Shown: positions 1 through 63,800 of the stretch, one piece after another | Position numbering within the stretch: the stretch's first letter is position 1 | Layout: the number at the start of each line of letters is the position of its first letter | Notes under the pieces: model-generated | Told to the model about the DNA's origin: nothing | Seen by the model: the letters and a program-made list of their open reading frames with translations, nothing else | The model's database searches: none | DNA from: Pseudomonas sp. S31 | GTDB taxonomy: Bacteria; Pseudomonadota; Gammaproteobacteria; Pseudomonadales; Pseudomonadaceae | NCBI RefSeq assembly: GCF_016648105.1 | Contig: NZ_JACVVE010000016.1 | Span: 1 to 64,000, forward strand | Direction: 5' to 3' | DNA length: 64,000 nt | Made by a program: the position numbers and the translations under genes

Positions 1-416
1 GCCCCCAACAGCGCCCGCCCCAGTGGCGACCCCCAGTTGATCATCCCGCGCCCGGCATCCGCCTCATCCTCGCCCACCAACTGCACCTAGTGCTCCTGAT
101 CCTGCTCATCGACGAACCTGACCCGGCTACCGATCTGTACCTTGCTGCGCGACGTTGCGGCGGGCACCACTTGGGCGCTCTGCACCCGGGCGGCGAAGTA
201 GCGGATATCCCGCTCCGTATCGGCCAGGCGCTGTTTGTCGCCCCGTTCGCCCTGGGCCTGAAGCTGGTTGCGCAAGGCGTTGAGCTCGGTTACGCGCTGT
301 TGCAACTGGCGCAGGCCGTTGGCGGTGACATAGTTGGGCTGGTCGCTGACGCGCCGTTCCACTGGCTGGTCGGCCTGGGCGGCGGCGTGGTCTTCGTTGA
401 CGAATGCTCGGCTCAT
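1..416 (-). pseudogene. GreA/GreB-family transcription elongation factor, interrupted by an amber codon
   Basis: The start is the ATG at 414-416, because AAGGAGG lies just upstream on the minus strand. From it 109 codons read MSRAFVNEDHAAAQADQPVE and continue through a coiled-coil-like N-terminal region (about residues 30-75). A TAG then stops translation at 87-89. The same frame stays open beyond the stop to the window edge and reads VQLVGEDEADAG then MINWGSPLGRALLG, which is the typical GreA/GreB C-terminal (FKBP-like) domain. One base change therefore truncates the protein inside its C-terminal domain. Intact family members bind RNA polymerase and assist backtracked complexes. Nonsense mutation is the simplest reading; sequencing error or amber suppression are alternatives. 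The family call is firm, and the inactivation depends on that single base. Confidence 0.8.
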
Positions 417-520
417 TGGGGCCTCCTTTTGCAGAAGACCACTGTGGCAGGTGCCGGGTTTCGGCGGATGTCCGTGCGCGCCCCGGTCCCGACCTGGCCG
501 CGCCGTCAGCTGGGCTTCAC

Positions 521-2374
521 TCAATAGTGATACCACTTCAGCTCGAGCATCACCTCGTTCTGCGCGCTGGCCAGGTGACTGAACTGCCGCGAAGCACTCA
601 ACCGCAACCCCAGGTTCTGGCTGATCTCCCATTGCTGGTTCAAGCTCACGCTGCGCCGCACCTCGCCATTGGTGAAATAGTCGCCCTTGGCCTCCAGGGT
701 CATATTGCCCAGGCCGTTGCGCCACAGCAGCCCGCCATTGAAACCCGTTGCCGGCGCCACGAACTGGGCGAAGTCGTTGTGGTGCTCGACCCGCAATGTG
801 CCCAGGGCAAAGCCCAGCAGGCCGTCCGCCAGTTGCCAGGTGCCACCGGCACCGCCGTTCACATGGCTGACCAGCACTTCGTCGTCATGCTTGCCCGGCA
901 CCCGCTCCAGGCCGCCAGCGACCTGCCAAGACCAGGGCTTGAGCAGCTCGTTGCGCGGTGTCAGCGAGCGAATGGTGGCCAGGTCCAGGCGCTGCACCTG
1001 CCAGTCGTTGCCCTCGTACTGGCGGACCTTGAGCTGGAGGATCTCGATCTGCGCACCCAATGGGAAGCCGTAGGCATTGTCGTTGAGGTCGTGGTAGGCC
1101 ATGCGCAGGCCGTACTCGGCGTAGGCCCGGTCTTCGCGGGTGCCCACGCCCAGCTGCCAGGTGCGCGAGTCATGGCCGTCCTCCGGCAGCCCGGGGCGTT
1201 CGATCTGCAGCGGCGGCGGCGGGTTGCGATTGATCGCCCGCAGCAATTCGAAACTGCGCCGGGCCTGCTCGGGGTCGCGCTCCTGGCCGTTGGCCCGGTA
1301 GCGCTCCAGGCGGTATGCGGCATCCTGCACCAGGGCCTGGCGGTCGCGGGGCAGGGCGGTGAAATCGGTGGCCTGCAATTGCCCGGTATCGGCGCTGAGC
1401 GCCAGTACCTGGCGTTTTTCGGCATGGTCGAGCGGTTCGGCGCGCGCCAGCAATTCACGTTCGCGCGAGGGGCGGTAGTTGATGCTCGACACCAGCCCCG
1501 ACTGTTTCACCGCCTTGACCGTGTCGGTGGGGATGGCGGTCAGCGGGAACTGCGAGGTCAGGTCCAGGCTCGGGCGCGCCACTTGCAGCAGTTCGAGCAG
1601 GCGGTAGGAGCAGTTTTCATCGAAGAAGAAGTAATCGAACTGGATCTGCTTGAGCTCCCACACGTGCTCGACCATGCGCCCGGTTTCTTCTGGTGTCAGG
1701 TCCAGCTGGTACTCCCACAGGTCGCGGTTTTCCAGGCTGCGGTATTCGGAGAGTTTCTCCTGGTAGGGCATCAGCGCGAACAGCCCGGGGTAGCCTCCCA
1801 TCAGGCCCTTCCAGGCGTAGAGGATGCTGTTGTCGCTGCCTTCGATATAAGCGCCGAAGTTGATCGCGTAGCTCAGCAGTGTGGTGTCGTCGTTGCGGGT
1901 ATTGGACTGGTCGATGCGCAGCAGGGTATGGCCGAACATCGATGACGGGCTGTTCAGGTAGGCCGCCGGGAAGATCAGCGCGGCGCTGTGCGGGTCGATC
2001 GATCGGTACCAGGTCTTGAACTCCTGGCAGTCCGGCTGCGGCAGGCCTTGCAGCCCAAGCTGCTCGCGCAACCAGCGGGTGCGTGCCGGGAATACGCACT
2101 GGGCATGCTTGTCGCCGAGACTGGCCGGGGCATACAGCGCCTCGACCGTGGCGCGCAGTTCCTGGTCAGGATGGTGAGCGCCGTCGGCGGCGAGGAAGAA
2201 GGCGTCATCGTCCACGTAGCTGCGCCAGCCGCCGAGCTTGGCGGTTTCATAATGGCCCAGGGCGATCCAGTAGGGGGTGTTGGCCAGTTGCCGAACACGG
2301 GCGTCATCCAGCACCGGCGCAGCATGAAGAGGGGCGCAGAACAACAGCGCCAGGGAAGCGAGGCGTTTGAGCAT
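521..2374 (-). CDS. DUF4105 (Lnb N-terminal-like) periplasmic/outer-surface protein
   Basis: 617 aa with a signal peptide (MLKRLASLALLFCAPLHAAP, cut near residue 19). The middle holds the DUF4105/Lnb_N core: SSMFGHTLLRID with His149 and FFFDENCSYRLLELL with Cys255 are the conserved His and Cys expected for this papain-like-fold family. The C-terminal ~230 residues are rich in alternating hydrophobic/polar segments (KGDYFTNGEVRRSVSLNQQW) and end in an aromatic residue, suggesting a beta-rich domain. The family name comes from Gram-positive lipoprotein N-acyltransferase Lnb; activity in pseudomonads is not established. The gene follows the DUF3015 gene on the same strand, but a terminator lies between them. 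The function call is limited to the family. Confidence 0.85.
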   Translation of the reverse strand: MLKRLASLALLFCAPLHAAPVLDDARVRQLANTPYWIALGHYETAKLGGWRSYVDDDAFFLAADGAHHPDQELRATVEALYAPASLGDKHAQCVFPARTRWLREQLGLQGLPQPDCQEFKTWYRSIDPHSAALIFPAAYLNSPSSMFGHTLLRIDQSNTRNDDTTLLSYAINFGAYIEGSDNSILYAWKGLMGGYPGLFALMPYQEKLSEYRSLENRDLWEYQLDLTPEETGRMVEHVWELKQIQFDYFFFDENCSYRLLELLQVARPSLDLTSQFPLTAIPTDTVKAVKQSGLVSSINYRPSRERELLARAEPLDHAEKRQVLALSADTGQLQATDFTALPRDRQALVQDAAYRLERYRANGQERDPEQARRSFELLRAINRNPPPPLQIERPGLPEDGHDSRTWQLGVGTREDRAYAEYGLRMAYHDLNDNAYGFPLGAQIEILQLKVRQYEGNDWQVQRLDLATIRSLTPRNELLKPWSWQVAGGLERVPGKHDDEVLVSHVNGGAGGTWQLADGLLGFALGTLRVEHHNDFAQFVAPATGFNGGLLWRNGLGNMTLEAKGDYFTNGEVRRSVSLNQQWEISQNLGLRLSASRQFSHLASAQNEVMLELKWYHY

Positions 2375-2415
2375 GAGGGCAACTACTTCTCAACGATGCC
2401 GAAGAAAAAGCGAAA

Positions 2416-2437
2416 CCCGCCCCGATGTCGGGGCGGG
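2416..2437 (-). terminator. Rho-independent terminator after the DUF3015 gene
   Basis: Perfect GC-rich hairpin: CCCGCCCC and GGGGCGGG arms with a 6-nt loop. On the minus strand it is followed by TTTCGCTTTTTC. It lies between the DUF3015 stop and the DUF4105 start, so the two genes are probably largely separate transcripts. Confidence 0.8.
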
Positions 2438-2448
2438 AGATGCCGGAC

Positions 2449-2937
2449 TCAGGCCTCGGTGGCGTACTTGGCCAGGCGTGGGTCGCTCTTCAGGACAGCC
2501 AGGGTGTTGGCGTGGACGGTTTCGGCGTTCACGTCGGCGCTGCTGAAGATCTGGTTGAAGTGCTGGTGGGTGACCGATGCGAAGTAGCCGCGGTCTTCAG
2601 GCGCGACGCCCAGCACCACCGCATAGGTGGTCAACGCTTCGCCTTGGCCCATGGCCATGTCTTCGGAAAGTTCGTTCATCATGCCATTCATGGCGAACCA
2701 GGATTTGCCGCCGTAGGTCAGCGCAGCCTTGGTGGAGCAGCCGTTGGTGCCGGAGGTCATGCCGAAGGTGGCGTTGCCGGAGGTGCCGTTGGTGGTGGAG
2801 GCCAGGAAGTGGGCCGGGGTGCCACGTTGGCCTTCGAACAACAGGTTACCCCAACCGCAGTTCGGGCCACCTGGCGCTTCGGCCATGGCGTTGAGGGAGA
2901 CCACGGTGAACAGAGTACCCAGAAGAATCCGTTTCAT
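2449..2937 (-). CDS. DUF3015 family exported protein
   Basis: 162 aa. Residues 1-19 (MKRILLGTLFTVVSLNAMA) form a clear Sec signal peptide. The mature part shows the DUF3015 pattern: an early GPNCGWGN motif, a glycine/threonine-rich stretch (TTNGTSGNATFGMTSGTNGC) and a second cysteine that could pair with the first. The C-terminal third is helical. The length is normal for the family, whose members are small periplasmic proteins of unknown role in proteobacteria. It has its own downstream terminator. The neighbours give no functional clue. Confidence 0.85.
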   Translation of the reverse strand: MKRILLGTLFTVVSLNAMAEAPGGPNCGWGNLLFEGQRGTPAHFLASTTNGTSGNATFGMTSGTNGCSTKAALTYGGKSWFAMNGMMNELSEDMAMGQGEALTTYAVVLGVAPEDRGYFASVTHQHFNQIFSSADVNAETVHANTLAVLKSDPRLAKYATEA

Positions 2938-3189
2938 AGCATTTGTTCTCTATTTGTCTTAACCAAGGGTCAGGTTTGTCTGGCAACTCGGTTGCCAGGC
3001 GGGAACGCGTTTTACCCACCCGCGCAGCTTGGAGTTTAGGCACGATCTAAAGGTTGCGTCGTTGATTGCGAAAAATTTGCTACATGCCCGGCCGCCACGG
3101 CTGCGACATAAAGTCCCGGGGAGCCTTGCAAGGCGCGCGCGGGCAGCGCCAGAATGCTGCGTATCGCCCCGCCGAAGTAAGGAAACCCA

Positions 3190-5628
3190 ATGCCCGATCC
3201 CGTCGCTGCGCGCCTGCGTCTCGCGCCTGAAGCCCTGACCCGGCGTTTTTCCCCCGAGCAGTTTGCGTTTACCCATACCGACGATCTGGAGCCGTTTCGA
3301 GGTGTCCTGGGCCAGGAACGTGCTGTCGAGGCCCTGCAATTCGGCGTGGCCATGCCGCGCCCCGGTTACAACGTCTACGTGATGGGCGAGCCCGGCACCG
3401 GGCGCTTCTCGTTCGTCAAGCGCTACCTCAAGGCCGAGGGCAAGCGCCAGCAGACCCCGTCCGACTGGGTCTACGTCAACCACTACGACGACACCCGCGA
3501 ACCCCGCGCGCTGGAGCTGCCCTCGGGTACCGCGCACGCCTTCATCGCCGACATGGGCGGGCTGATCGATAACCTGCTGGCCACCTTCCCCGCAGTGTTC
3601 GAACACCCGTCCTACCAGCAGAAGAAGGGCGCCATCGACCGCGCCTTCAACCAGCGCTACGACCGTGCCCTGGATGTGATCGAACGGGCCTCGCTGGAGA
3701 AGGACGTGGCCCTGTACCGCGACGCCAGCAACGTCGCCTTCACCCCCATGGCCGACGGCAAGGCGCTCGACGAGGCCGAGTTCGCCCAGTTGCCCGAGTC
3801 GGTGCGCGAACAGTTCCACGAGGACATCGCCGCCCTCGAGGAACGCCTCAACGAAGAGCTGGCCAGCCTGCCCCAGTGGAAGCGCGAATCGAACAACCAG
3901 CTGCGCCAGTTGAACGAAGAAACCATCACCCTGGCCCTGCAGCCGCTGCTGGCGCCGCTGTCGGAAAAATACGCCGAGAACGCCGCGGTGTGCGCCTACC
4001 TGCAGTCGGTGCAGTTGAACCTGCTGCGTACCGTGGTCGAGCAACTGGTCGATGACAGCAAGACCGACGCCGTGGCGCGCAAGCTGCTCGAGGAGCAGTA
4101 CGCTCCCAGCCTGGTGGTCGGCCATCACGCCGACGGCGGCGCGCCGGTGGTCTTCGAGCCGCACCCGACCTACGACAACCTGTTCGGGCGTATCGAATAC
4201 AGCACCGACCAGGGGGCGCTGTATACCTCGTACCGCCAGCTGCGCCCTGGCGCGCTGCACCGGGCCAATGGCGGTTTCCTGATCCTCGAAGCAGAGAAGA
4301 TGCTCGGCGAGCCGTTCGTCTGGGATGCGCTCAAGCGGGCCCTGCAGTCGCGCAAGCTGAAGATGGAGTCGCCGCTGGGCGAGCTCGGCCGGGTCGCCAC
4401 GGTGAGCCTGACGCCGCAGATGATCCCGCTCAAGGTCAAGCTGGTGATCATCGGCTCGCGCCAGCTGTACTACGCGCTGCAGGACCACGATCCGGACTTC
4501 CAGGAGATGTTCCGCGTGCTGGTCGACTTCGACGAAGACATGCCGATGGTCGACGAGAACCTCGAACAGTTCGCCCAGCTGTTGCGCACCCGCACCAACG
4601 AGGAGGGCATGGCGCCGCTGACCAGCGATGCCGTGGCGCGGCTGGCCACCTACAGCGCCCGCCTGGCGGAAAACCAGTCGCGTCTGTCGGCGCGCATCGG
4701 CGACCTGTTCCAGTTGGTCAGCGAGGCCGATTTCATCCGCCAGCTGGCCAGTGACGAGATGACCGACGCCGGGCACATCGAGCGGGCGCTCAAGGCCAAG
4801 GCCACGCGCACCGGCCGGGTTTCGCAGCGGGTACTCGACGACATGCTGGCCGGCATCATCCTGATCGACACCGAAGGCGCGGCGATCGGCAAGTGCAACG
4901 GCCTTACCGTGCTCGAGGTCGGTGACTCGGCGTTCGGCATGCCGGCGCGCATCTCGGCCACCGTGTACCCTGGCGGCAGCGGCATCGTCGATATCGAGCG
5001 CGAGGTCAACCTGGGCCAGCCGATCCACTCCAAGGGCGTGATGATCCTCACCGGCTACCTTGGCAGCCGCTACGCCCAGGAATTCCCCCTGGCGATCTCG
5101 GCGAGCATCGCCTTGGAGCAGTCCTATGGCTACGTCGATGGCGACAGTGCGTCGCTGGGCGAGGTGTGCACGCTGATCTCGGCCTTGTCGCGCACGCCGC
5201 TCAAGCAGTGCTTCGCCATCACCGGCTCGATCAACCAGTTCGGCGAAGTGCAGGCGGTAGGCGGGGTCAACGAGAAGATCGAAGGCTTCTTCCGCCTCTG
5301 CGAAGCGCGTGGCCTGACCGGTGACCAGGGGGTGATCATTCCGCGGGCCAACGTCGCCACGCTGATGCTCGACGAACGCGTGCTGCAGGCTGTCGAGGCC
5401 GGGCAGTTCCATGTCTATGCGGTGAAACAGGCCGACGAGGCGCTCAGCCTGCTGGTGGGCGAGGAGGCCGGTGTACTGGACGACCAGGGGCAGTTCACCG
5501 AGGGCAGCGTCAACGCCCGGGTGGTCGAGCGCTTGCGCGAAATCGCCGAGATGATCAGCGAGGAAGAAATCAAGGACGCCGAGAAGGAGCGCCTGGAGGA
5601 GATGGTGGCCCAGGCCAAGCCGGCCTGA
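3190..5628 (+). CDS. Lon-related ATP-dependent protease (LonB/LonC-like, S16 family)
   Basis: 812 aa. The N-terminal AAA module carries a P-loop at residues 66-73 (GEPGTGRF), in which the usual GKS/T lysine is arginine. A long helical insertion follows (about 160-300), then the second half of the ATPase (FLILEAEKMLGEPFVWDAL as Walker B region). The C-terminal S16 protease domain (about 575-780) contains the Ser-Lys dyad: Ser653 in DGDSASLGE and Lys696 in GGVNEKIEGFF. The start is supported by AAGGAAA 8 nt upstream. Members of this class degrade proteins in the cytosol; the arginine P-loop appears typical of the subgroup (recalled, not checked) and may mean weak or no ATP hydrolysis. It is a single-gene transcript with its own terminator. 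Confidence 0.9.
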   Translation: MPDPVAARLRLAPEALTRRFSPEQFAFTHTDDLEPFRGVLGQERAVEALQFGVAMPRPGYNVYVMGEPGTGRFSFVKRYLKAEGKRQQTPSDWVYVNHYDDTREPRALELPSGTAHAFIADMGGLIDNLLATFPAVFEHPSYQQKKGAIDRAFNQRYDRALDVIERASLEKDVALYRDASNVAFTPMADGKALDEAEFAQLPESVREQFHEDIAALEERLNEELASLPQWKRESNNQLRQLNEETITLALQPLLAPLSEKYAENAAVCAYLQSVQLNLLRTVVEQLVDDSKTDAVARKLLEEQYAPSLVVGHHADGGAPVVFEPHPTYDNLFGRIEYSTDQGALYTSYRQLRPGALHRANGGFLILEAEKMLGEPFVWDALKRALQSRKLKMESPLGELGRVATVSLTPQMIPLKVKLVIIGSRQLYYALQDHDPDFQEMFRVLVDFDEDMPMVDENLEQFAQLLRTRTNEEGMAPLTSDAVARLATYSARLAENQSRLSARIGDLFQLVSEADFIRQLASDEMTDAGHIERALKAKATRTGRVSQRVLDDMLAGIILIDTEGAAIGKCNGLTVLEVGDSAFGMPARISATVYPGGSGIVDIEREVNLGQPIHSKGVMILTGYLGSRYAQEFPLAISASIALEQSYGYVDGDSASLGEVCTLISALSRTPLKQCFAITGSINQFGEVQAVGGVNEKIEGFFRLCEARGLTGDQGVIIPRANVATLMLDERVLQAVEAGQFHVYAVKQADEALSLLVGEEAGVLDDQGQFTEGSVNARVVERLREIAEMISEEEIKDAEKERLEEMVAQAKPA

Positions 5629-8280: not shown

Positions 8281-8622
8281 TCAGACCTTACGCACGAACT
8301 CGGACTTCAGCTTCATGGCGCCGATGCCGTCGATCTTGCAGTCGATGTCGTGGTCGCCGTCGCACAGGCGGATGTTCTTGACCTTGGTGCCGACCTTGAC
8401 CACCAGGGACGAGCCCTTGACCTTGAGGTCCTTGATCACGGTGACGGTGTCGCCGTCCTGCAGGACGTTGCCGACCGAGTCCTTCTTCACCACGTCGTCG
8501 CTGGCCGCCTCGGGTTCGCCGCTGGCCGACCACTCGTGGGCACACTCGGGGCAGATCAGCTGGGTGCCGTCCTCGTAGGTGTATTCGGAGTTGCATTTGG
8601 GGCAGGGGGGCAGCGTGCTCAC
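8281..8622 (-). CDS. PhnA/YjdM family zinc-ribbon protein
   Basis: 113 aa. The N-terminal zinc ribbon has cysteine pairs [10 protein letters not shown] (residues 7, 10) and [10 protein letters not shown] (about 24, 27). The C-terminal PhnA domain contains [20 protein letters not shown] and [16 protein letters not shown]. Length and layout match E. coli YjdM (formerly PhnA). Despite the old name, a role in alkylphosphonate use is not supported for this family. It is leftward and monocistronic, with a 45-nt gap to the REP region behind it. Confidence 0.9.
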
Positions 8623-8704
8623 TTCGGTTCCTTAAACAGACGGGGGGGTTAAAGCCCACATTGTATAAGGTTTTGCTGGCGAAGTGTTTTTGTCCGTACA
8701 AAAG

Positions 8705-8768
8705 CTTCGCGGGTAAACCCGCTCCTACAGGCTGCGCGATCCCTGTAGGAGCGGGTTTACCCGCGAAG
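8705..8768. repeat. REP inverted pair between phnA-like gene and ispB
   Basis: Two 27-nt copies in opposite orientation (CTTCGCGGGTAAACCCGCTC, then CTACAGG) at 8705-8731 and 8742-8768 form a perfect palindrome with a 10-nt loop. Confidence 0.9.
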
Positions 8769-8784
8769 AATCCAGCTCGGTCTG

Positions 8785-9753
8785 TCAGTGCGTACGCGCT
8801 ACCGCAAACTCGCTCAGCTCGACCAAGGCATCCCGGTATTCGCTGGCCGGCAGCACTTCCAGGCACTCGATCGCCCGCTTGACGTACTCCCGCGCAAGCT
8901 CCGCGGTGTACTTCAGCGCACCGGATGCCTTCACCGCCTCGCGAATCTGCTCCAGGTCTTCCAGGCCACCCTTCTGGATCGCCTTGCGCACCAGCGCCGC
9001 CTGCTCCGGCGTGCCTTCGCGCATGGTGTAGATCAGCGGCAGGGTCGGCTTGCCCTCGGCCAGGTCGTCGCCGACGTTCTTGCCCAGGGCCTCGGCATCA
9101 CCTTCGTAGTCGAGCAGGTCGTCGACCAGCTGGAAGGCGACCCCCAGGTGGTCGCCGAAGGTGCGCAGGGCTTCGCGCTGCGCATCGGTACCGCCGGCCA
9201 GGGCTGCGGCGCTGTGGGTCGAGGCTTCGAACAGCATCGCGGTCTTGCCGCGGATGACGTCCATGTAGACCTCCTCGGTGGTGCTGGCATCGCGCACGCG
9301 CGACAACTGCAGTACCTCGCCCTCGGCGATCACCCGGGTGGCCTTGGAGAGGATCTGCATGACCGGCATCGAACCCAGTTCGACCATCATCTCGAACGAG
9401 CGCGAATACAGGAAGTCGCCCACCAGCACGCTTGGCGCGTTGCCCCACAGGGCATTGGCGGTGGAGCGGCCACGGCGCATGCCCGACATGTCGACCACGT
9501 CGTCGTGCAGCAGGGTGGCGGTGTGCAGGAATTCGATGGTCGCGGCCAGCAGGCGCAGGTCGTCGCCCTCGCGGCCCAGGGCCTTGCCGCACAGCAGCAC
9601 CAGCAGTGGGCGCAGGCGCTTGCCGCCAGCGGACGTGATATAGTCGCCGATCTTCGATACCAGCGGCACGCGCGAGGTCAGCTGCTTCTTGATGATCTCG
9701 TCGACGGCGCTGAAGTCGTCAGCTACCGCGCGGTAGAAGGTTTGGGGTTGCAT
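8785..9753 (-). CDS. ispB: Octaprenyl (polyprenyl) diphosphate synthase
   Basis: 322 aa trans-prenyltransferase that makes the ubiquinone side chain by adding isopentenyl diphosphate to farnesyl diphosphate. First aspartate-rich motif DDVVD at residues 84-88, second DDLLD at 211-215; KRLRPLLV and the GKT before MLF are also typical. The start chosen is MQPQTFYRA at 9753, because GGAG lies just upstream; an ATG 12 nt earlier (9765) would overlap that ribosome binding site. It is divergent from rplU-rpmA, the conserved pseudomonad arrangement. Confidence 0.95.
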
Positions 9754-9838
9754 CGGCTGCTCCATTGAGGTTGCGCGGCATGCTAGGTCGCGGGTACCGG
9801 TGTGTCAAGGCACGCTGCCCGTGGCCCGGGGCCGCCAC

Positions 9839-9867
9839 TTGCAAGCAAAACCCGGGTTGCGTACAAT
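9839..9867 (+). promoter_or_regulatory. Sigma70 promoter of rplU-rpmA
   Basis: TTGCAA (9839-9844) and TACAAT (9862-9867) are separated by exactly 17 nt, close to the -35/-10 consensus. Transcription would start near 9874 and give a leader of about 125 nt before rplU. Confidence 0.75.
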
Positions 9868-9997
9868 CGCGCACCCTAACTTCCTGGGCAGCACCTGCCT
9901 TACGCAATTGCACCGGGCCGTTCCAGCCCAGTGCAGCCATGCCAGCCAATACTCATCATATAAAGCGCTGGGTGAGCAGGATTATCGGAGAAATACC

Positions 9998-57308: not shown

Positions 57309-58592
57309 ATGCTTAAGAGCCTTACGCTCAGCGGAGTAGGGCCCGCAGCGACATTTGGGCCGATAGAGTTCGACGCTCGCCTTAATTTCATCACGGGCGA
57401 CAACGGCCTAGGCAAGAGCTTCCTGCTCGACATCGCTTGGTGGGCATTGACACGTACCTGGGCTCGAGGCGTTCCAGCTGTGCCTCCTCTCGGCAGCAAG
57501 CGGAGCAGCATTGCTTATGCCTATAGTAAGTCCACTCCTGGCGATTTCGACGAGACCAGTGTTTTCAAGCGCGTGGAGCAACAGTGGCCGACCAAAAAGG
57601 GCAGACCGCCCATTCCCGGCGTCGTAATTTATGCCGGGGTCGATGGTAGTTTTTCTGCATGGGACCCTGTTCGCAACTATTGGCAGGATGAAGAAGCAGG
57701 CGAACGCCCTCGGGCATTTAACTTTTCACCTGATCAAGTTTGGAATGGCCTTGAGGGGCCTGGAGGGATCCGCTATTGCAATGGCTTAATTCAGGATTGG
57801 GTGTTGTGGCAAAAAGGGCAAGACCCGGCTTTTGACGATCTGATCAAGGTACTGGATACCTTATCTCCTTCTGGAGCTGAGAGGCTTGAACCGGGCAAAC
57901 CGGTGCGATTGGGGTTGGACGTAAAAGATTACCCATCGCTACGAATGCCTTATGGGCAAGATGTGGCGTTGATTCATGCTTCTGCGGGCATGCGACGTGT
58001 TGCGGCACTGGCTTATTTACTGGTCTGGACTTGGCGTGAGCACATTTTCGCATGCGAGCAAACCGGGCGTAAGCAAGCAAAGGAAATCATCTTTCTCATT
58101 GACGAGATAGAATGCCATCTACACCCACAATGGCAGCGTCGTGTGGTCCCGGCTTTGTTGAAAGTCATGCAGGCTTTGACCGGTAAGAAGGTCCCGGTTC
58201 AGCTTATCGTTGCAACTCACTCGCCATTAGTGCTGGCCTCTGTCGAGCCGGAGTTCGACGAGTCCAAAGATGCAATTTTCAACATCCAACTGTGTGACGG
58301 TCAAGCCAGTGTGATCAAGGAGCAATGGGCAAAGCAGGGGGATGTCGTGAACTGGTTGGTCTCTGACTCCTTTGGGTTACGTCAGGCGCGATCCATCGAA
58401 GCTGAATCTGCAATTGAAGCTGCTGAGGCTTGGATGCGCGGAGAAAAAGCTGTTTTGCCTCCAACGCTCAAGTCGCAGGCAGCCATTCATAGAGAATTAG
58501 AGCGTGTTTTAGCCGGGCACGATGATTTTTGGCCTCGCTGGTTGGTGGAAACGAAGCAAGTACCTCGGCAGCATCCTTCGGAGCAAGCATGA
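57309..58592 (+). CDS. AAA/ABC-type ATPase, Septu PtuA-like
   Basis: 427 aa, soluble. Walker A GDNGLGKS at residues 30-37, ABC-signature-like HASAGMRR at 223-230, Walker B IIFLIDEIECHLHPQ around 260-273, switch His in VATHSPLVLAS near 304. This is the OLD/PtuA class of defence-type ATPases (SMC-like heads without long coils). The stop overlaps the start of an HNH nuclease gene (ATGA), giving the ATPase + HNH arrangement of Septu. Base composition is more A+T-rich than the core genome, suggesting acquisition. Phage-defence role is inferred from family and context. Confidence 0.75.
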   Translation: MLKSLTLSGVGPAATFGPIEFDARLNFITGDNGLGKSFLLDIAWWALTRTWARGVPAVPPLGSKRSSIAYAYSKSTPGDFDETSVFKRVEQQWPTKKGRPPIPGVVIYAGVDGSFSAWDPVRNYWQDEEAGERPRAFNFSPDQVWNGLEGPGGIRYCNGLIQDWVLWQKGQDPAFDDLIKVLDTLSPSGAERLEPGKPVRLGLDVKDYPSLRMPYGQDVALIHASAGMRRVAALAYLLVWTWREHIFACEQTGRKQAKEIIFLIDEIECHLHPQWQRRVVPALLKVMQALTGKKVPVQLIVATHSPLVLASVEPEFDESKDAIFNIQLCDGQASVIKEQWAKQGDVVNWLVSDSFGLRQARSIEAESAIEAAEAWMRGEKAVLPPTLKSQAAIHRELERVLAGHDDFWPRWLVETKQVPRQHPSEQA

Positions 58593-59179
58593 TCGAAATC
58601 GATCTAGAACGTTTAGCTGAACCAGCTGAGTTCGATACGAAGTGTCGAAAGAAGGGAGAGCAATGGCTGAGAGATAATCCAAAAGTCAGTCGAACGCCTA
58701 AAACGAGGCCAAGAGATTTTTGGAGTCCTTTCAGATCTGCTCTCGCAGACGGATACCAGGATCGATGCGGCTATAGCGCAATGTATGAGCCAGTTGGGAC
58801 CGTAGATCACTTTTTACCGGTCGATGCTGATGAGTCGCTTTCCTACGAATGGACCAATTACCGTTTTTGCTCTGGCTGGATCAATAGTAGTAAGAGGAAG
58901 TCGGTCGAAATTTTAGATCCTCATTTGGTTCGTGAAGGATGGTTTGAGGTTCTGTTACCTTCTTTGCAACTTGTCGTCGTGCTTGAGAAGGTACCTGAGG
59001 AGTTGCGGGTTGCAGCGACAGAAACGTTGACGCGCCTTCATCTGCGTGATGATGAGAGGGTGCTAAGGCAGCGTCGTGCTTGGTACTCAAAGTACCAGGA
59101 GGGTAAAATCAATTTGGATGGCCTTCGAGAGGTAGCGCCCCTGATTGCCGCAGCGGTGGAAAGGCTGGATGCTCAATAG
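58589..59179 (+). CDS. HNH nuclease, Septu PtuB-like
   Basis: 196 aa. HNH core at about residues 57-101: DRCGYSAMYEP, then VDHFLP (Asp73-His74), YEWTNYRF (Asn90) and INSSK (Asn99). The usual CxxC zinc pairs are reduced to single cysteines (Cys60, Cys94), so metal structure support may differ. The C-terminal half is helical. Coupled to the ATPase by ATGA overlap. It is expected to cut DNA or RNA when released by its ATPase partner. Confidence 0.7.
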   Translation: MIEIDLERLAEPAEFDTKCRKKGEQWLRDNPKVSRTPKTRPRDFWSPFRSALADGYQDRCGYSAMYEPVGTVDHFLPVDADESLSYEWTNYRFCSGWINSSKRKSVEILDPHLVREGWFEVLLPSLQLVVVLEKVPEELRVAATETLTRLHLRDDERVLRQRRAWYSKYQEGKINLDGLREVAPLIAAAVERLDAQ

Positions 59180-59196
59180 GTCCTCTGAGAAAAACA

Positions 59197-59230
59197 AAGC
59201 CCCTTGGAAAGTGCTTCCAACGGGCTTTTT
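59197..59230 (+). terminator. Terminator of the ATPase-HNH operon
   Basis: AAGCCCCTTGGAA and TTCCAACGGGCTT arms with a short loop, then TTTTT, 18 nt after the HNH stop. Confidence 0.85.
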
Positions 59231-59409
59231 CATTGGGGCGTAGAAACAGAACCAGACGTTAAACCAGAAGTCATTGGGTGCAGGCCCTATGAAATCCGGA
59301 TTTGGGTGCTATCAAGCTGGATGTGTGCCCGTTTTGAAACCCGCTTTTGAAGATGTTTATGGTTTCGCGATTACAAAGGGGTGGTGCCCTATGAGCCGTC
59401 GAATCACGT

Positions 59410-61456
59410 TTAAAGTAGATCCATGGTAACCAGGGCGTCGGCCATACGGTAGCCCATCGCTTTGTAACCTGCTTGGCGCTTATCCCACATTCTCATTAGC
59501 GCAGCACTGCCTTCGTCAACGAAGTCAATCACTCCCACGCCGGCTTTGTCGGCATGTGACCGATGCAACCGTCCTGCATATTGCTGGAGGATTCCCTTCC
59601 ATGAGATGGGCATTGCCAGCACCAACGTGTCCAATGGCGGATGATCGAAGCCTTCACCGACTAGTTTTCCCGTCGCCAACAGTACTCGTGGTGCATCCGG
59701 GGCAAGGCGCTCAAGCTCTTGCATACGAGCAATTCGTTGTTTTTTAGGCATTCGCCCATGAAGTGTGAAAAGGTTATTCACGCGCTGTTTCAACTCAAGC
59801 TCCATGGTATCCACATGCTCCGTCCGTTCTAGGTGATGACACTCATCGACGATAATTTGCCCGTAGTTTTTTACGTGATCGCTGATCTCACCTTTTCGCG
59901 ATAACGATTGCATTACGGCAATATCGATGATGCCTGTAGGTTTTGCTTTTCCGCCCCCAAATCGTTCCAACCATACCCTTGCCAACACCCAAGAACGCTT
60001 GCACGTGTTCTTGCCACTGTCTTAATAATTCGGTCCGATGCACAAGTATTAATGTGTTAACGCCACGTCTAGCAATCAATGCAGCTGCGCTGACCGTTTT
60101 ACCGAACGCCGTAGGTGCGCAAAGAATTCCGGTATCGTGATTCAGCATTTTGCCGATGGCATCTTCCTGGTCTGGACGCAAGGTCCCGAGGAAACTCACG
60201 TCAATCGGGTCACCGGCGAAGCGTTCATCTTGAAACTCAGGGGTGATGCCATTTACCCCTAGCAGCTCCAGCGCAGCATCCAAGCAGCCACGTGGCAGCG
60301 CAATATGTTTGGGGAAGTTCTGGGCGCAACCGATGATTCTCGGCTTGTTCCACACCGACATGCGCATGGCTTGAGTTTTGTAGAATTCAGGATTTTGAAA
60401 CGCGGCTAGCCGGACAAGCTGGTTTGCTAATGGTTGCGGCAACGCCGACTTTTCAAAGTAAATCATGTTAGCCAGCGTGACGTTGATAGAGGCTGGCAAT
60501 GGGCACGTCAATTTTGGTGACTTCGACTCACGAGCCTTCCAAGGTTCTGCATCTCCGTCGTCGTCAACATACATGACTCCTGTAGGGTCCTGCTTCCCCA
60601 TCGCTTGGGTGACAACGAACGGAATATCCTCCGGAGGCATTTTCTGAACCGATGCTAAGAAAGCCCACTGATCGAGATAAGGTTCAAGTTCGCTGTCGAC
60701 AAAAACGCTGTTGTTGTGAGCTCTGGCTCGCTTTTGCAATGGAAGCGCGATGAGATTTCCGAAGCCGCCTTTAGGCATGTAGTCCTGATTTGGGAACAAC
60801 CGATCATAAGAAGTGAGTGCCAATTGGCGTGTACGTTCACATGCATGGCTGATGATTGCCGCACCAAGACGTCGGGCATCATGAGCGGGAACACTTTGCT
60901 TGAAGAAAATCCAGCAATGAGCGCCTTTACCTGAACGGGATATTTCCAGTGCCATTGGTACGTTCAGTTCATGACACGACTGAGCGAAGGCTCGTGCATC
61001 ATCACGCCATTCGGCTTCATCAAAGTCGACCGCCATAAGATAGCAGGTGTCATCCGGGAGCAGAGGGTAGATGCCAATAACCACTTCACCAGCCAGATGG
61101 CGATAAACGATCTCATCAGTGAGAGGAAGTAGCTGACGGTTACCGCAGTCGCCGCATTTAATTCGGGGCTTTTCACAAACGCCAGGTTTCCATTCATTTG
61201 CGCAGGCGGGTGTGTATCCTGATTTTCCTGCCTTGCTTTCCCAGCGAATTGGATAAACATCTGTCCTACCACGAAACAAGCTCCGGAATAGGGCAAGCTT
61301 TGCTTCTGTGCCGAATTGTTGTGTGTGTTCTGTTTGAACAACCTCGATCTTGACTGGCTCGGCCGGCAGACGCCAATCGATGCCATGAGCATCCAGCAAG
61401 GCGACCAATCTTGCATTCTCAGCCTTTAGCTTCGCCACCAGGCTAGTATCTATCAC
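59410..61456 (-). pseudogene. TOTE-type primase-helicase, inactivated
   Basis: Two overlapping frames. The 5' part (GTG 61456 to 59888, 522 aa) has a zinc knuckle (Cys85, 94, 101, 104), an archaeo-eukaryotic primase core (AVDFDE 142-147, SRSGKGAH 173-180) and a helicase P-loop CAPTAFGKT near 445. Near 59957-59961 (ATTTGGGGGC) a one-base insertion breaks the frame; in the next frame GGGKAKPTGIIDIAVMQSLS continues. After VDECHHL the protein jumps straight to ERTEHVDTME, lacking roughly 100 residues that include the SAT/TAT motif. The end (GEGFDHPPLDTLVLAMP, QYAGRLHR) is typical. It is almost surely non-functional as a helicase. Confidence 0.8.
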
Positions 61457-61657: not shown

Positions 61658-62340
61658 GATCTGTGTCCTCTCTTAGCTAGCCTGAAGTCCATCCTCACGT
61701 CATCCCGCCAAGAAATGTTGAGTGTTATCAGGGATCAAGGCCCCTGCGACCTGTGAGGATGTCCACTGACGCGGGAATGGCGGCTCCGTACGACCGGAGC
61801 GAGGGCATCTCATGATCAGGCCTCCTGAGCACCGTTACCGGTGGGTGGGTGGAGGCTACGCTGGCTGACGAGACCAGCGCCGCGAGATCCTGAGCAAGGT
61901 GAAAGCAGCGATGCGATGACCGGGGCATACGTGACTGTCAGTCAGGTGCAGTCCATTCCTTGGTCTGCGGCACCATCATCTGCATCGTTGCGGCTGATGA
62001 CATCGGCGTTTGTCACGCCCATTGTCACAAGGGGAATTGCCGCAAAGCCTTGTGCGATCAGGGCTGCAGCAGTGTCAGAAGCGCCCGTCTCTTCAGAAAG
62101 TGACGGGCGCAGGTTGGCGCAAGATTCGGCCAAGCGGATAGGTTGCTGCAGGACAGCGGAGTACGGAGTTGCTGGCGCACGAGGGCCATAAGTATAGAGA
62201 GCATCCATCACTGCCAGTGATCGGGCGAGCTGCCGGATGCGAATAGTCCTCGCGGAGAACCACCGCGAGAGCGGCGTGACCTTGAAGGTTCGGGTCACCT
62301 GGGATGCTGTTGTGGACAGCGATCTTAAGGATCTGAGGTA
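61658..62340. other. Gene-poor island stretch
   Basis: Open frames on both strands (for example 61942-62445 minus, 61841-62191 plus) lack ribosome binding sites and recognisable products, apart from the integrase relic that enters from the right. No repeat or RNA gene seen. Confidence 0.5.
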
Positions 62341-62595
62341 ACGTTTGTGCTGGGTTTTGTTAGCGGGCAGGGCGCGCCGGACTGGATAGACCGGGTCTGT
62401 ATCTGCTCTCAGCGTCGAGACGGCGAGTTCAAAAATACCGGCCACGCTTCGTTTGGCCGCCGCAGCGATCGTCAGGCCGTTTTTTTTCTTGGCGGAAGCC
62501 TGCGCGACCGCCTCGAATGTAGTGGCGTTGTCTTGCTGCTGCTTGATGCGTAGCAGTTGTCGATGTCTGGCGGGATTGATGCCTTCGCTCGGATC
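62341..62595 (-). pseudogene. Fragment of a P4-type (DUF4102) tyrosine integrase
   Basis: Read on the minus strand from 62595, just after an in-frame TGA: DPSEGINPARHRQLLRIKQQ, NATTFEAVAQASAKKK, then RSVAGIFELAVSTLRADTDP and RRALPANKTQHKR. This matches the arm-binding/core-binding boundary (GInPa..R, TFE.VA) and the IF.yAv...DP...aL segment of P4-like integrases, with about 60 residues deleted between and no catalytic domain. It marks the right end of the island next to ychF. Confidence 0.65.
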
Positions 62596-62660: not shown

Positions 62661-62699
62661 CTGGAGTCTTTCATGTACCGTGGAATCCCACGGAGCCCA

Positions 62700-63800
62700 T
62701 CAGACGTTGAAGCGGAAGTGCATCACGTCGCCGTCCTTGACGATGTAGTCCTTGCCTTCCAGGCGCCACTTGCCGGCTTCCTTGGCACCGCTTTCACCCT
62801 TGAACTGGATGAAGTCGTCATAGGCCACCACTTCGGCGCGGATGAAGCCTTTTTCGAAGTCGGTGTGGATCACCCCGGCCGCCTGTGGGGCGGTGGCGCC
62901 GACGCGCACGGTCCAGGCGCGGACTTCCTGCACGCCGGCAGTGAAGTAGGTCTGCAGGTTGAGCAGCTCGTAACCGGCGCGGATCACGCGGTTCAGGCCA
63001 GGCTCTTCCAGGCCCAGGGCCTCGAGGAACATGTCCTTCTCCTCGCCATCGTCCAGCTCGGCGATTTCGGCTTCGATCTTGTTGCACACCGGCACTACCA
63101 CAGCGCCTTCTTCCTCGGCGATGGCCTTGACCACGTCCAGGTGCGGGTTGTTGTCGAAGCCGTCTTCGGCGACGTTGGCGATGTACATCACCGGCTTGCT
63201 GGTCAGCAGGTGGAAGCCACGGATCAGCGCTTTCTCATCGTCTGCCATGTTCTTCATCAGGCTGCGCGCAGGCTTGCCTTCGGTGAAGTGCGGGATCAGC
63301 TTTTCCAGAATGGCCTTCTGCGCCAGGGCTTCCTTGTCACCGCCCTTGGCGTTGCGGGCAACCTTCTGCAGTTGCTTCTCGCAGCTGTCGAGGTCGGCGA
63401 AGATCAGTTCGAGGTCGATGATCTCGATGTCGCGCTTGGGGTCGACGCTGTTGGAAACGTGGATCACGTTCTCGTCTTCGAAGCAGCGCACCACGTGGGC
63501 GATGGCGTCGGTCTCGCGGATGTTGGCGAGGAACTTGTTGCCCAGGCCTTCACCTTTCGAGGCGCCGGCTACCAGGCCGGCGATGTCGACGAACTCCATG
63601 GTGGTCGGCAGGATGCGGTTGGGCTTGACGATTTCCGCCAGCGCCGCCAGGCGCGCATCGGGCATCGGCACGATGCCGCTGTTCGGCTCGATGGTGCAGA
63701 AGGGGAAGTTCTCCGCCGCGATGCCAGACTTGGTCAGGGCGTTGAACAGGGTGGACTTGCCGACGTTGGGCAGGCCGACGATGCCGCAATTGAAACCCAT
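62700..63800 (-). CDS. ychF: Ribosome-binding ATPase YchF
   Basis: 366 aa, the standard YchF length. G1 [18 protein letters not shown]3 [18 protein letters not shown], a non-canonical G4 ([13 protein letters not shown], NxxE type) that gives ATP preference, a coiled coil and a C-terminal TGS domain ([20 protein letters not shown]). Start at MGFNCGIVG; it follows pth on the same strand by 22 nt, the conserved pth-ychF operon. Confidence 0.96.

Follow-up and report, generated by a model that had tools for sequence, protein, structure and literature searches.

Two adjoining genes in a 64,000-nucleotide stretch of the genome of Pseudomonas sp. S31 (contig NZ_JACVVE010000016.1; hereafter the window) very probably constitute an intact Septu type I module, a PtuA ATPase with a PtuB HNH nuclease, belonging to a deep, horizontally moving PtuAB lineage. 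Septu type I has long been known (PMC8565338), and the pair is a divergent but recognisable form of it; the part for which we found no description is the missing zinc knuckle, a trait of the clade. A preliminary description, made from the sequence, had proposed either a diverged Septu subtype or an undescribed ATPase–nuclease defence system. The first of these proposals is supported by the PADLOC PtuA1 and PtuB1 models, by the folds of PtuA and PtuB, and by a separate, deep PtuA clade.

The genes stand directly in the order ptuA, ptuB (Table 1), and ptuA adjoins ptuB in 83 of the 84 sequences examined. They are coupled, as had been proposed, by a 4-nt ATGA overlap that contains the ptuB start codon (58589). 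A longer ptuB ORF can be read from a TTG at 58529. The exact 4-nt overlap recurs in 75 of 83 pairs (the window included), a count in which each relative's ptuB start was picked by the analyst as the start codon closest to the aligned start, and the longer reading is therefore unneeded. The claim that the pair has its own terminator also holds: the segment 59180–59240 has a folding energy of −24.6 kcal/mol (z −2.99 relative to 200 shuffled versions) and a T run 3′ of the stem. The hairpin was absent from the output of a simple terminator scan.

Table 1. Coordinates of the ptuAB pair and its features in the window.
Feature	Position	Strand	Basis
ptuA-like gene, 427 aa ABC/AAA_21 ATPase (Septu type I PtuA)	57309..58592	+	PADLOC, Pfam, predicted fold
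Walker A of PtuA, GDNGLGKS, residues 30–37	57396..57419	+	sequence; conservation
ptuB-like gene, 196 aa HNH protein without zinc knuckle	58589..59179	+	PADLOC, AF2 model, fold
HNH (beta-beta-alpha metal) core of PtuB, residues 70–102: H74, N90, N99, K102	58796..58894	+	model; conservation
Intrinsic-terminator-like hairpin and T run, 3′ of ptuB	59197..59230	+	fold of 59180–59240

That the first gene encodes a PtuA-like ATPase with all ATP motifs is borne out both by its sequence and by an alignment of 54 PtuAs. Beyond Walker A, the motifs are the signature ASAGMRR (224–230), Walker B FLIDE (262–266), and H304; residues G30, N32, G35, K36, R230, D265, E266, and H304 are invariant across the alignment. 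The PADLOC PtuA1 model PDLC00307 matches PtuA at E 9.9e-186 over residues 1–418 of 427, and Pfam recognises AAA_21 (E 1.6e-17). The predicted model (50 rows in the alignment, pLDDT 88.8) has as its best structural match the PtuA chain 8ee4_E (Z 24.0, rmsd 3.1, 307 aligned), and the match to 8eea_D (Z 23.9) spans model residues 1–421. The top 20 structural matches are all PtuA entries, the first non-PtuA entry standing at Z 19.0. PtuA also matches the PADLOC AriA model; AriA is not among the best 50 structural matches listed for PtuA, an absence that excludes nothing. PtuA is present in a single copy in the genome.

The partner protein is matched by the PADLOC PtuB1 model PDLC00348 (E 5.8e-66, residues 4–194 of 196). 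The E-values of the PtuA1 and PtuB1 matches, which supply the HMM comparison that the preliminary description had proposed as a check, exclude chance by a wide margin. Pfam and NCBIfam gave no match to PtuB at E 1 or better, and a phmmer search of the PDB with the single PtuB found nothing, the solved PtuBs included. An AlphaFold2 model built from 68 rows (mean pLDDT 97.5) contains strands at 70–74 and 91–95 and a helix at 96–102, forming a beta-beta-alpha-metal unit. Within it, H74 (correctly numbered from the outset), N90, and N99 occupy the usual positions of such a unit. The best ten PDB chains recovered by Foldseek all come from retron I-A complexes or E. coli Septu and are in each case the HNH/PtuB chain, the first alone falling below E 0.001. 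With VIA-align, the best match is 9u9y_H, the PtuB of retron Ec78 (Z 15.2, rmsd 3.4, 174 aligned), and 8eea_G gives Z 14.2 (rmsd 3.8, 183 aligned); the eleven best matches range from Z 11.9 to 15.2, a twelfth PtuB reaches 7.1, and the best non-PtuB 6.1. Identity to the solved PtuBs is 14–17%.

That the two genes form a new ATPase–nuclease system rather than a Septu seems very improbable on this evidence. The silence of Pfam and NCBIfam on PtuB, the missing zinc ligands, and the depth and separateness of the PtuA clade (the latter two discussed below) would fit such a system, but the PADLOC PtuA1 and PtuB1 matches speak against it, the best PDB folds are those of PtuA and PtuB, and the knuckle cannot define Septu, since three of its four cysteines are also missing from the solved PtuB of E. 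coli Septu. A wholly new system was rejected on the profiles and folds of PtuA and PtuB. The earlier suggestion that the pair might be undescribed is likewise unsupported: the PADLOC models already cover nearly the full length, and dyads of an HNH protein with an OLD-ABC ATPase have been reported in BREX loci (PMC12839542).

At the zinc-ligand positions 60/63/95/98, the window PtuB reads C/S/S/I, and the four-cysteine CxxC...CxxC knuckle of zinc-finger HNH proteins, present in most PtuBs, is absent from it. The preliminary description had the zinc cysteine pairs reduced to single residues, which is accurate for the first pair (C60/S63) and applies only loosely to the second (S95, I98), where the lone C94 sits one residue outside the ligand register. 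Across 84 distinct PtuBs, the window included, cysteine occurs at positions 60, 63, 95, and 98 in 84, 1, 31, and 0 sequences, respectively; 52 have one zinc-ligand cysteine, 32 have two, and none has more. These rows come from 113 hits, with the window represented by two copies (L001, L085); 24 rows at 115 bits or less were dropped (17 from L098–L114, and seven weak or fragmentary hits from L032, L047, L071, L082, and L097), and 87 were kept, 84 of them distinct. The dropped L071 entry is a split PtuB copy with CxxC in its first piece. Ten columns are invariant in all 84 sequences (W45, C60, H74, W88, N90, R92, N99, K102, D110, and P111). Besides H74, the alignment contains no further conserved Cys or His, the next columns reaching 21 of 84, position 95 aside. 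Fourteen further PtuBs, among them the broken copy L178, all keep C60, H74, N90, and R92, with N99 in 13; cysteine stands at position 95 in nine of them and at 63 and 98 in none.

Among 18 other (non-lineage) PtuBs, cysteine is found at the four positions in 18, 18, 18, and 13, a sample that excludes four of 22 other Septu loci without a family-profile PtuB match. Among those four is L161; its PtuB, as read in L120, is closely related to the E. coli PtuB and has no knuckle. The E. coli Septu PtuB itself (8ee7) reads CCYS and has no cysteine at the second pair, so that three of its four ligands are gone, which rules out that zinc loss is unique to the window's lineage. Judged from these alignments, knuckle loss is a stable trait of the window's PtuAB lineage, and something similar arose elsewhere in Septu. 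Two later cysteines are common to the E. coli PtuB (8ee7/8eea) and to L120 (1186–1791, − strand), and these might form another metal site.

It is extremely improbable that the window PtuB is a decaying or inactive nuclease, one in which loss of zinc means loss of cutting and the HNH protein persists in a structural or regulatory role alone. The replacement of three of the four knuckle cysteines could be read in this way, as could the frameshift in the adjoining TOTE gene; opposed to them are the invariance of C60, H74, N90, N99, and K102 in 84 of 84 sequences, the confident predicted fold of PtuB, and low dN/dS between relatives. The last was estimated among four relatives as 0.03–0.12 for ptuA (six pairs) and 0.09–0.26 for ptuB (five of six pairs, one being saturated), with several dS values above 1.5; dS is saturated for every pairing of a relative with the window, so these figures concern the relatives alone. 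Zinc loss as a sign of decay was rejected on the 84-row conservation. The evidence suggests that a PtuB-type HNH nuclease is able to dispense with the zinc knuckle yet stay under selection. In the literature passages covered, a zinc-less PtuB is not described, nor is PtuAB placed by name within BREX; this is weak evidence of absence.

A scan of genome contigs with four PtuAs found at least 525 stretches encoding a relative, from which the best 79 loci were taken. By record titles, the bearers of the lineage span about a dozen bacterial phyla, many of them represented by metagenome bins. A strong PtuB match (E 1.5e-47 or better) is present in 12 of 298 genomes of the window's genus, and 16 of 398 genomes match phylum-wide, the window's own genome being included in both counts. 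Identity of PtuAs with ones from named Pseudomonas species indicates that this genus is Pseudomonas. Five plasmid records carry a relative; viral contigs scanned with PtuB, and phage records, gave none. The E. coli PtuB peptide found nothing when used as a query against plasmids, and the queries L113 and L099 did not retrieve the E. coli PtuB.

Phyla are intermingled in a tree of 94 PtuAs, a sign of transfer, and the window groups with Aeromonas and Comamonadaceae. In a further tree, a branch of 3.8 changes per site with support of 100/100 sets 25 lineage PtuAs apart from 17 others; the other rows of this tree include several flagged long branches, and 8ee4 is represented by its near relative L120 rather than included itself. 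The PADLOC models that fit all 22 other PtuAs at E 1e-30 or better match the window PtuA at about 1e-21 or worse (PDLC00271, 3.4e-21; PDLC00278, 6e-21; also PDLC00299 and ATPase_I-A). Low identity, the long PtuA branch, and the poor fit to other PtuA models together suggest that trigger and substrate may differ from those of other Septu.

Individual relatives vary in architecture. The PtuA of L190 (9098–11008, −) has a TIR domain (PF13676, E 5.7e-31) that separates the ATPase core from the C-terminal part, and ptuB is retained downstream (8469–9107, −), placing two effector types on one sensor. PtuAs of L192 (8385–10346) and L038 (2259–4187) have N-terminal extensions of about 200–240 aa with no Pfam match, which may represent an upstream start only; the PADLOC model PDLC00270 (627 positions, matched by the window PtuA from 215 on) contains a comparable extension.

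In the window, the pair resides on a low-GC island, with GC of 0.50–0.55 over the pair and the adjoining TOTE gene, as against 0.63–0.68 to the left and 0.60–0.63 to the right. The island is flanked by a sulfate permease gene on the left and by ychF on the right. The adjoining gene (59410–61456, −) encodes a TOTE-type archaeo-eukaryotic primase plus helicase (PF22548, E 8.5e-103) and is frameshifted into two overlapping frames, from which it follows that the island is partly decaying. TOTE was considered as a conserved partner and rejected, tblastn of its pieces against L001–L114 having recovered nothing beyond the window copies except a 35-aa piece in L073. Among the five neighbouring ORFs, that at 61945–62445 has no Pfam match. 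A variable site lies near 62700, on the 3′ side of ychF; in five relatives, contiguous homology from ychF ends at 62689–62702. L116 has an extra 116-nt match (73%) at window positions 62342–62457, and in L117 the ychF-adjacent DNA matches other parts of the window. Relatives of the sulfate permease (69–73%) occur in five genomes (G002, G005, G009, G012, and G015), where they are distant from ychF.

We infer that the pair is an ATPase-gated HNH nuclease. By analogy with solved PtuAB complexes, PtuA most likely assembles into an ATP-dependent oligomer in which PtuB is carried in an inactive state, and infection would release or activate PtuB. The beta-beta-alpha-metal site would then cut nucleic acid, either tRNA or DNA, with H74 as general base and with N90 and N99, by their positions, in metal-site or structural roles; cleavage would stop phage growth, probably along with the cell, and in this manner confer protection. 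The PtuB fold would be maintained without zinc, with no other conserved Cys or His as a substitute. The Walker A/B residues (K36, D265, and E266) and HNH residues H74, N90, and N99 are all intact. In the Septu of EcB88, defence requires PtuA K43 or D316 and PtuB H75 or N91, and tRNA-Tyr is cleaved (PMC13096335). Compared by position rather than by alignment, K36, D265, H74, and N90 are the likely equivalents of these residues. Retron-Eco7 PtuAB depletes tRNA-Tyr, and nicked DNA is the reported target of the Septu of E. coli ATCC25922 (PMC11555353).

Some relatives of the pair lie among restriction genes. Among 83 loci (L002–L084), mostly picked as most similar and many on contigs so short that the absence of BREX or RM is not established, 12 have BREX-like genes (nine with PglX and PglZ, three with weaker PglX- and BrxL-like matches only), and type I RM genes flank the pair in nine, two of these as short pieces only; the marker sequences were drawn from the same loci (six of the nine RM loci and two of the 12 BREX loci). 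The pair lies between pglX and pglZ in all nine loci that have both, and likewise in two loci of a second sample. Pfam identifies HsdR in L006, L009, and L058, with hsdR 3′ of the pair; in L022 the pair is flanked by an HsdM-like gene and hsdS, and L072 has an N6 methylase with HsdM_N (Pfam). At a PADLOC threshold of E 1e-20, the 86 nearest same-strand neighbours include PglZ in seven cases and any one PglX model in six at most; for 115 genes more than 6 kb away, the 25 of 64 families listed contain no PglX or PglZ, and BrxA and BrxB twice each. These neighbour lists are without L012 (whose proteins equal those of L011) and L032, and a 1765-aa neighbour of L039 was excluded for its size.

Other neighbours were also observed. 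In L060, ptuA is directly preceded by a TIR-domain gene (9003–9956, +) within a BREX operon, in the interval from pglX to pglZ. In L035, a planctomycete bin, a caspase-like and protein-kinase protein (100–3402, +) is encoded just upstream of ptuA; similar proteins occur in nine loci by single-linkage clustering, which may reflect chaining via common domains.

The second sample comprised 26 lineage loci, 10 from the window's genus and 16 phylum-wide (L173, with no intact ptuA, was excluded), and it partly overlaps the first, 13 of its 27 PtuBs having already been seen. BREX was found in two of the 26 loci (three counting a pglZ fragment) and RM in none, versus 0 of 22 other Septu loci (Fisher P 0.49, or 0.24 with the fragment). 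In this control, 16 of the 22 loci are from Pseudomonas, all 22 PtuAs match PADLOC PtuA1 at E 1e-30 or better, and retron effectors were not separated out, ATPase_I-A also matching all 22. A preference of the lineage for BREX or RM is thus weakened, the second sample having failed to separate it from other Septu. The preliminary description had taken a lack of clustering with defence genes to count against a defence role; a minority of relatives do sit within BREX or type I RM operons, yet with no significant excess over other Septu loci.

This setting raises the possibility of a guard module, in which PtuA senses an anti-restriction protein (e.g., a DNA mimic inhibiting PglX or a type I enzyme) and releases PtuB in response; the reading is tentative, and on balance we doubt it. 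PARIS acts in this way with Ocr, and PrrC, beside type I RM, is held to act as such a guard. The numbers of relatives with BREX-like genes (12 of 83) and type I RM genes (nine of 83) are consistent with guarding, as are the position of the pair between pglX and pglZ and the match of PtuA to the AriA model. PrrC is reported as partnered by type I RM (PMC11555353), the BREX island of Salmonella D23580 contains the PARIS genes ariAB (PMC11341690), and PARIS within BREX has been interpreted as a counter to Ocr (PMC12839542); however, the Salmonella PARIS was unresponsive to Ocr (PMC11341690). Also weighing against guarding, neither BREX nor RM genes adjoin the window copy, and the window's genome has no PglZ or PF11867 hit and a single HSDR_N hit, on another contig. 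With two of 26 against 0 of 22 in the second sample, guarding is a lead and not a result. Distinctly unlikely, in our view, is the broader proposal of a functionally distinct Septu subtype, in which a zinc-free HNH nuclease, with the invariant C60 and R92 in new roles, would serve as a portable guard nested in BREX and type I restriction operons and bring about self-destruction once those operons are disabled by phage anti-restriction proteins. With some relatives nested in these operons, it becomes testable whether Septu can guard restriction systems as PARIS does.

Several known systems invite comparison with the Septu module described here. A 2026 survey reports dyads of an HNH protein and an OLD-type ABC ATPase in BREX loci (PMC12839542), which, by their description, equal the BREX-embedded relatives in gene pair and setting; that paper never mentions the name Ptu (0 occurrences). 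PARIS (AriA–AriB) similarly couples an OLD/ABC-type ATPase to a nuclease and occurs within a BREX island, and the window PtuA matches the AriA model at E 6.9e-25. The PtuA1 match is much stronger (9.9e-186), however, and the ATPase in the window stands beside an HNH protein of PtuB fold, whereas AriB is a TOPRIM nuclease. The PtuAB effectors of retron I-A (Ec78/Eco7), equivalent to PADLOC Septu type II, are close in fold for both PtuB (9u9y_H, Z 15.2) and PtuA (9nnb_C, Z 23.9), but their PtuBs retain CAYC plus a later cysteine pair; a reverse transcriptase partner, the mark of type II, is absent from the window's neighbouring ORFs, as judged from the ORF list and Pfam searches of five ORFs. 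From E. coli Septu type I (8ee4/8ee7/8eea), the window pair differs in its low identity (14–16%), in its shorter PtuB (196 aa versus 243), and in its distinct PtuA clade (100/100, branch 3.8, with L120 standing in for 8ee4), and the two later cysteines of E. coli Septu and L120 have no conserved counterpart in the window's lineage. The two nevertheless share an ATPase and HNH pair of the same folds (8eea_D, Z 23.9; 8eea_G, Z 14.2), the active-site H and N, and the loss of three knuckle cysteines.
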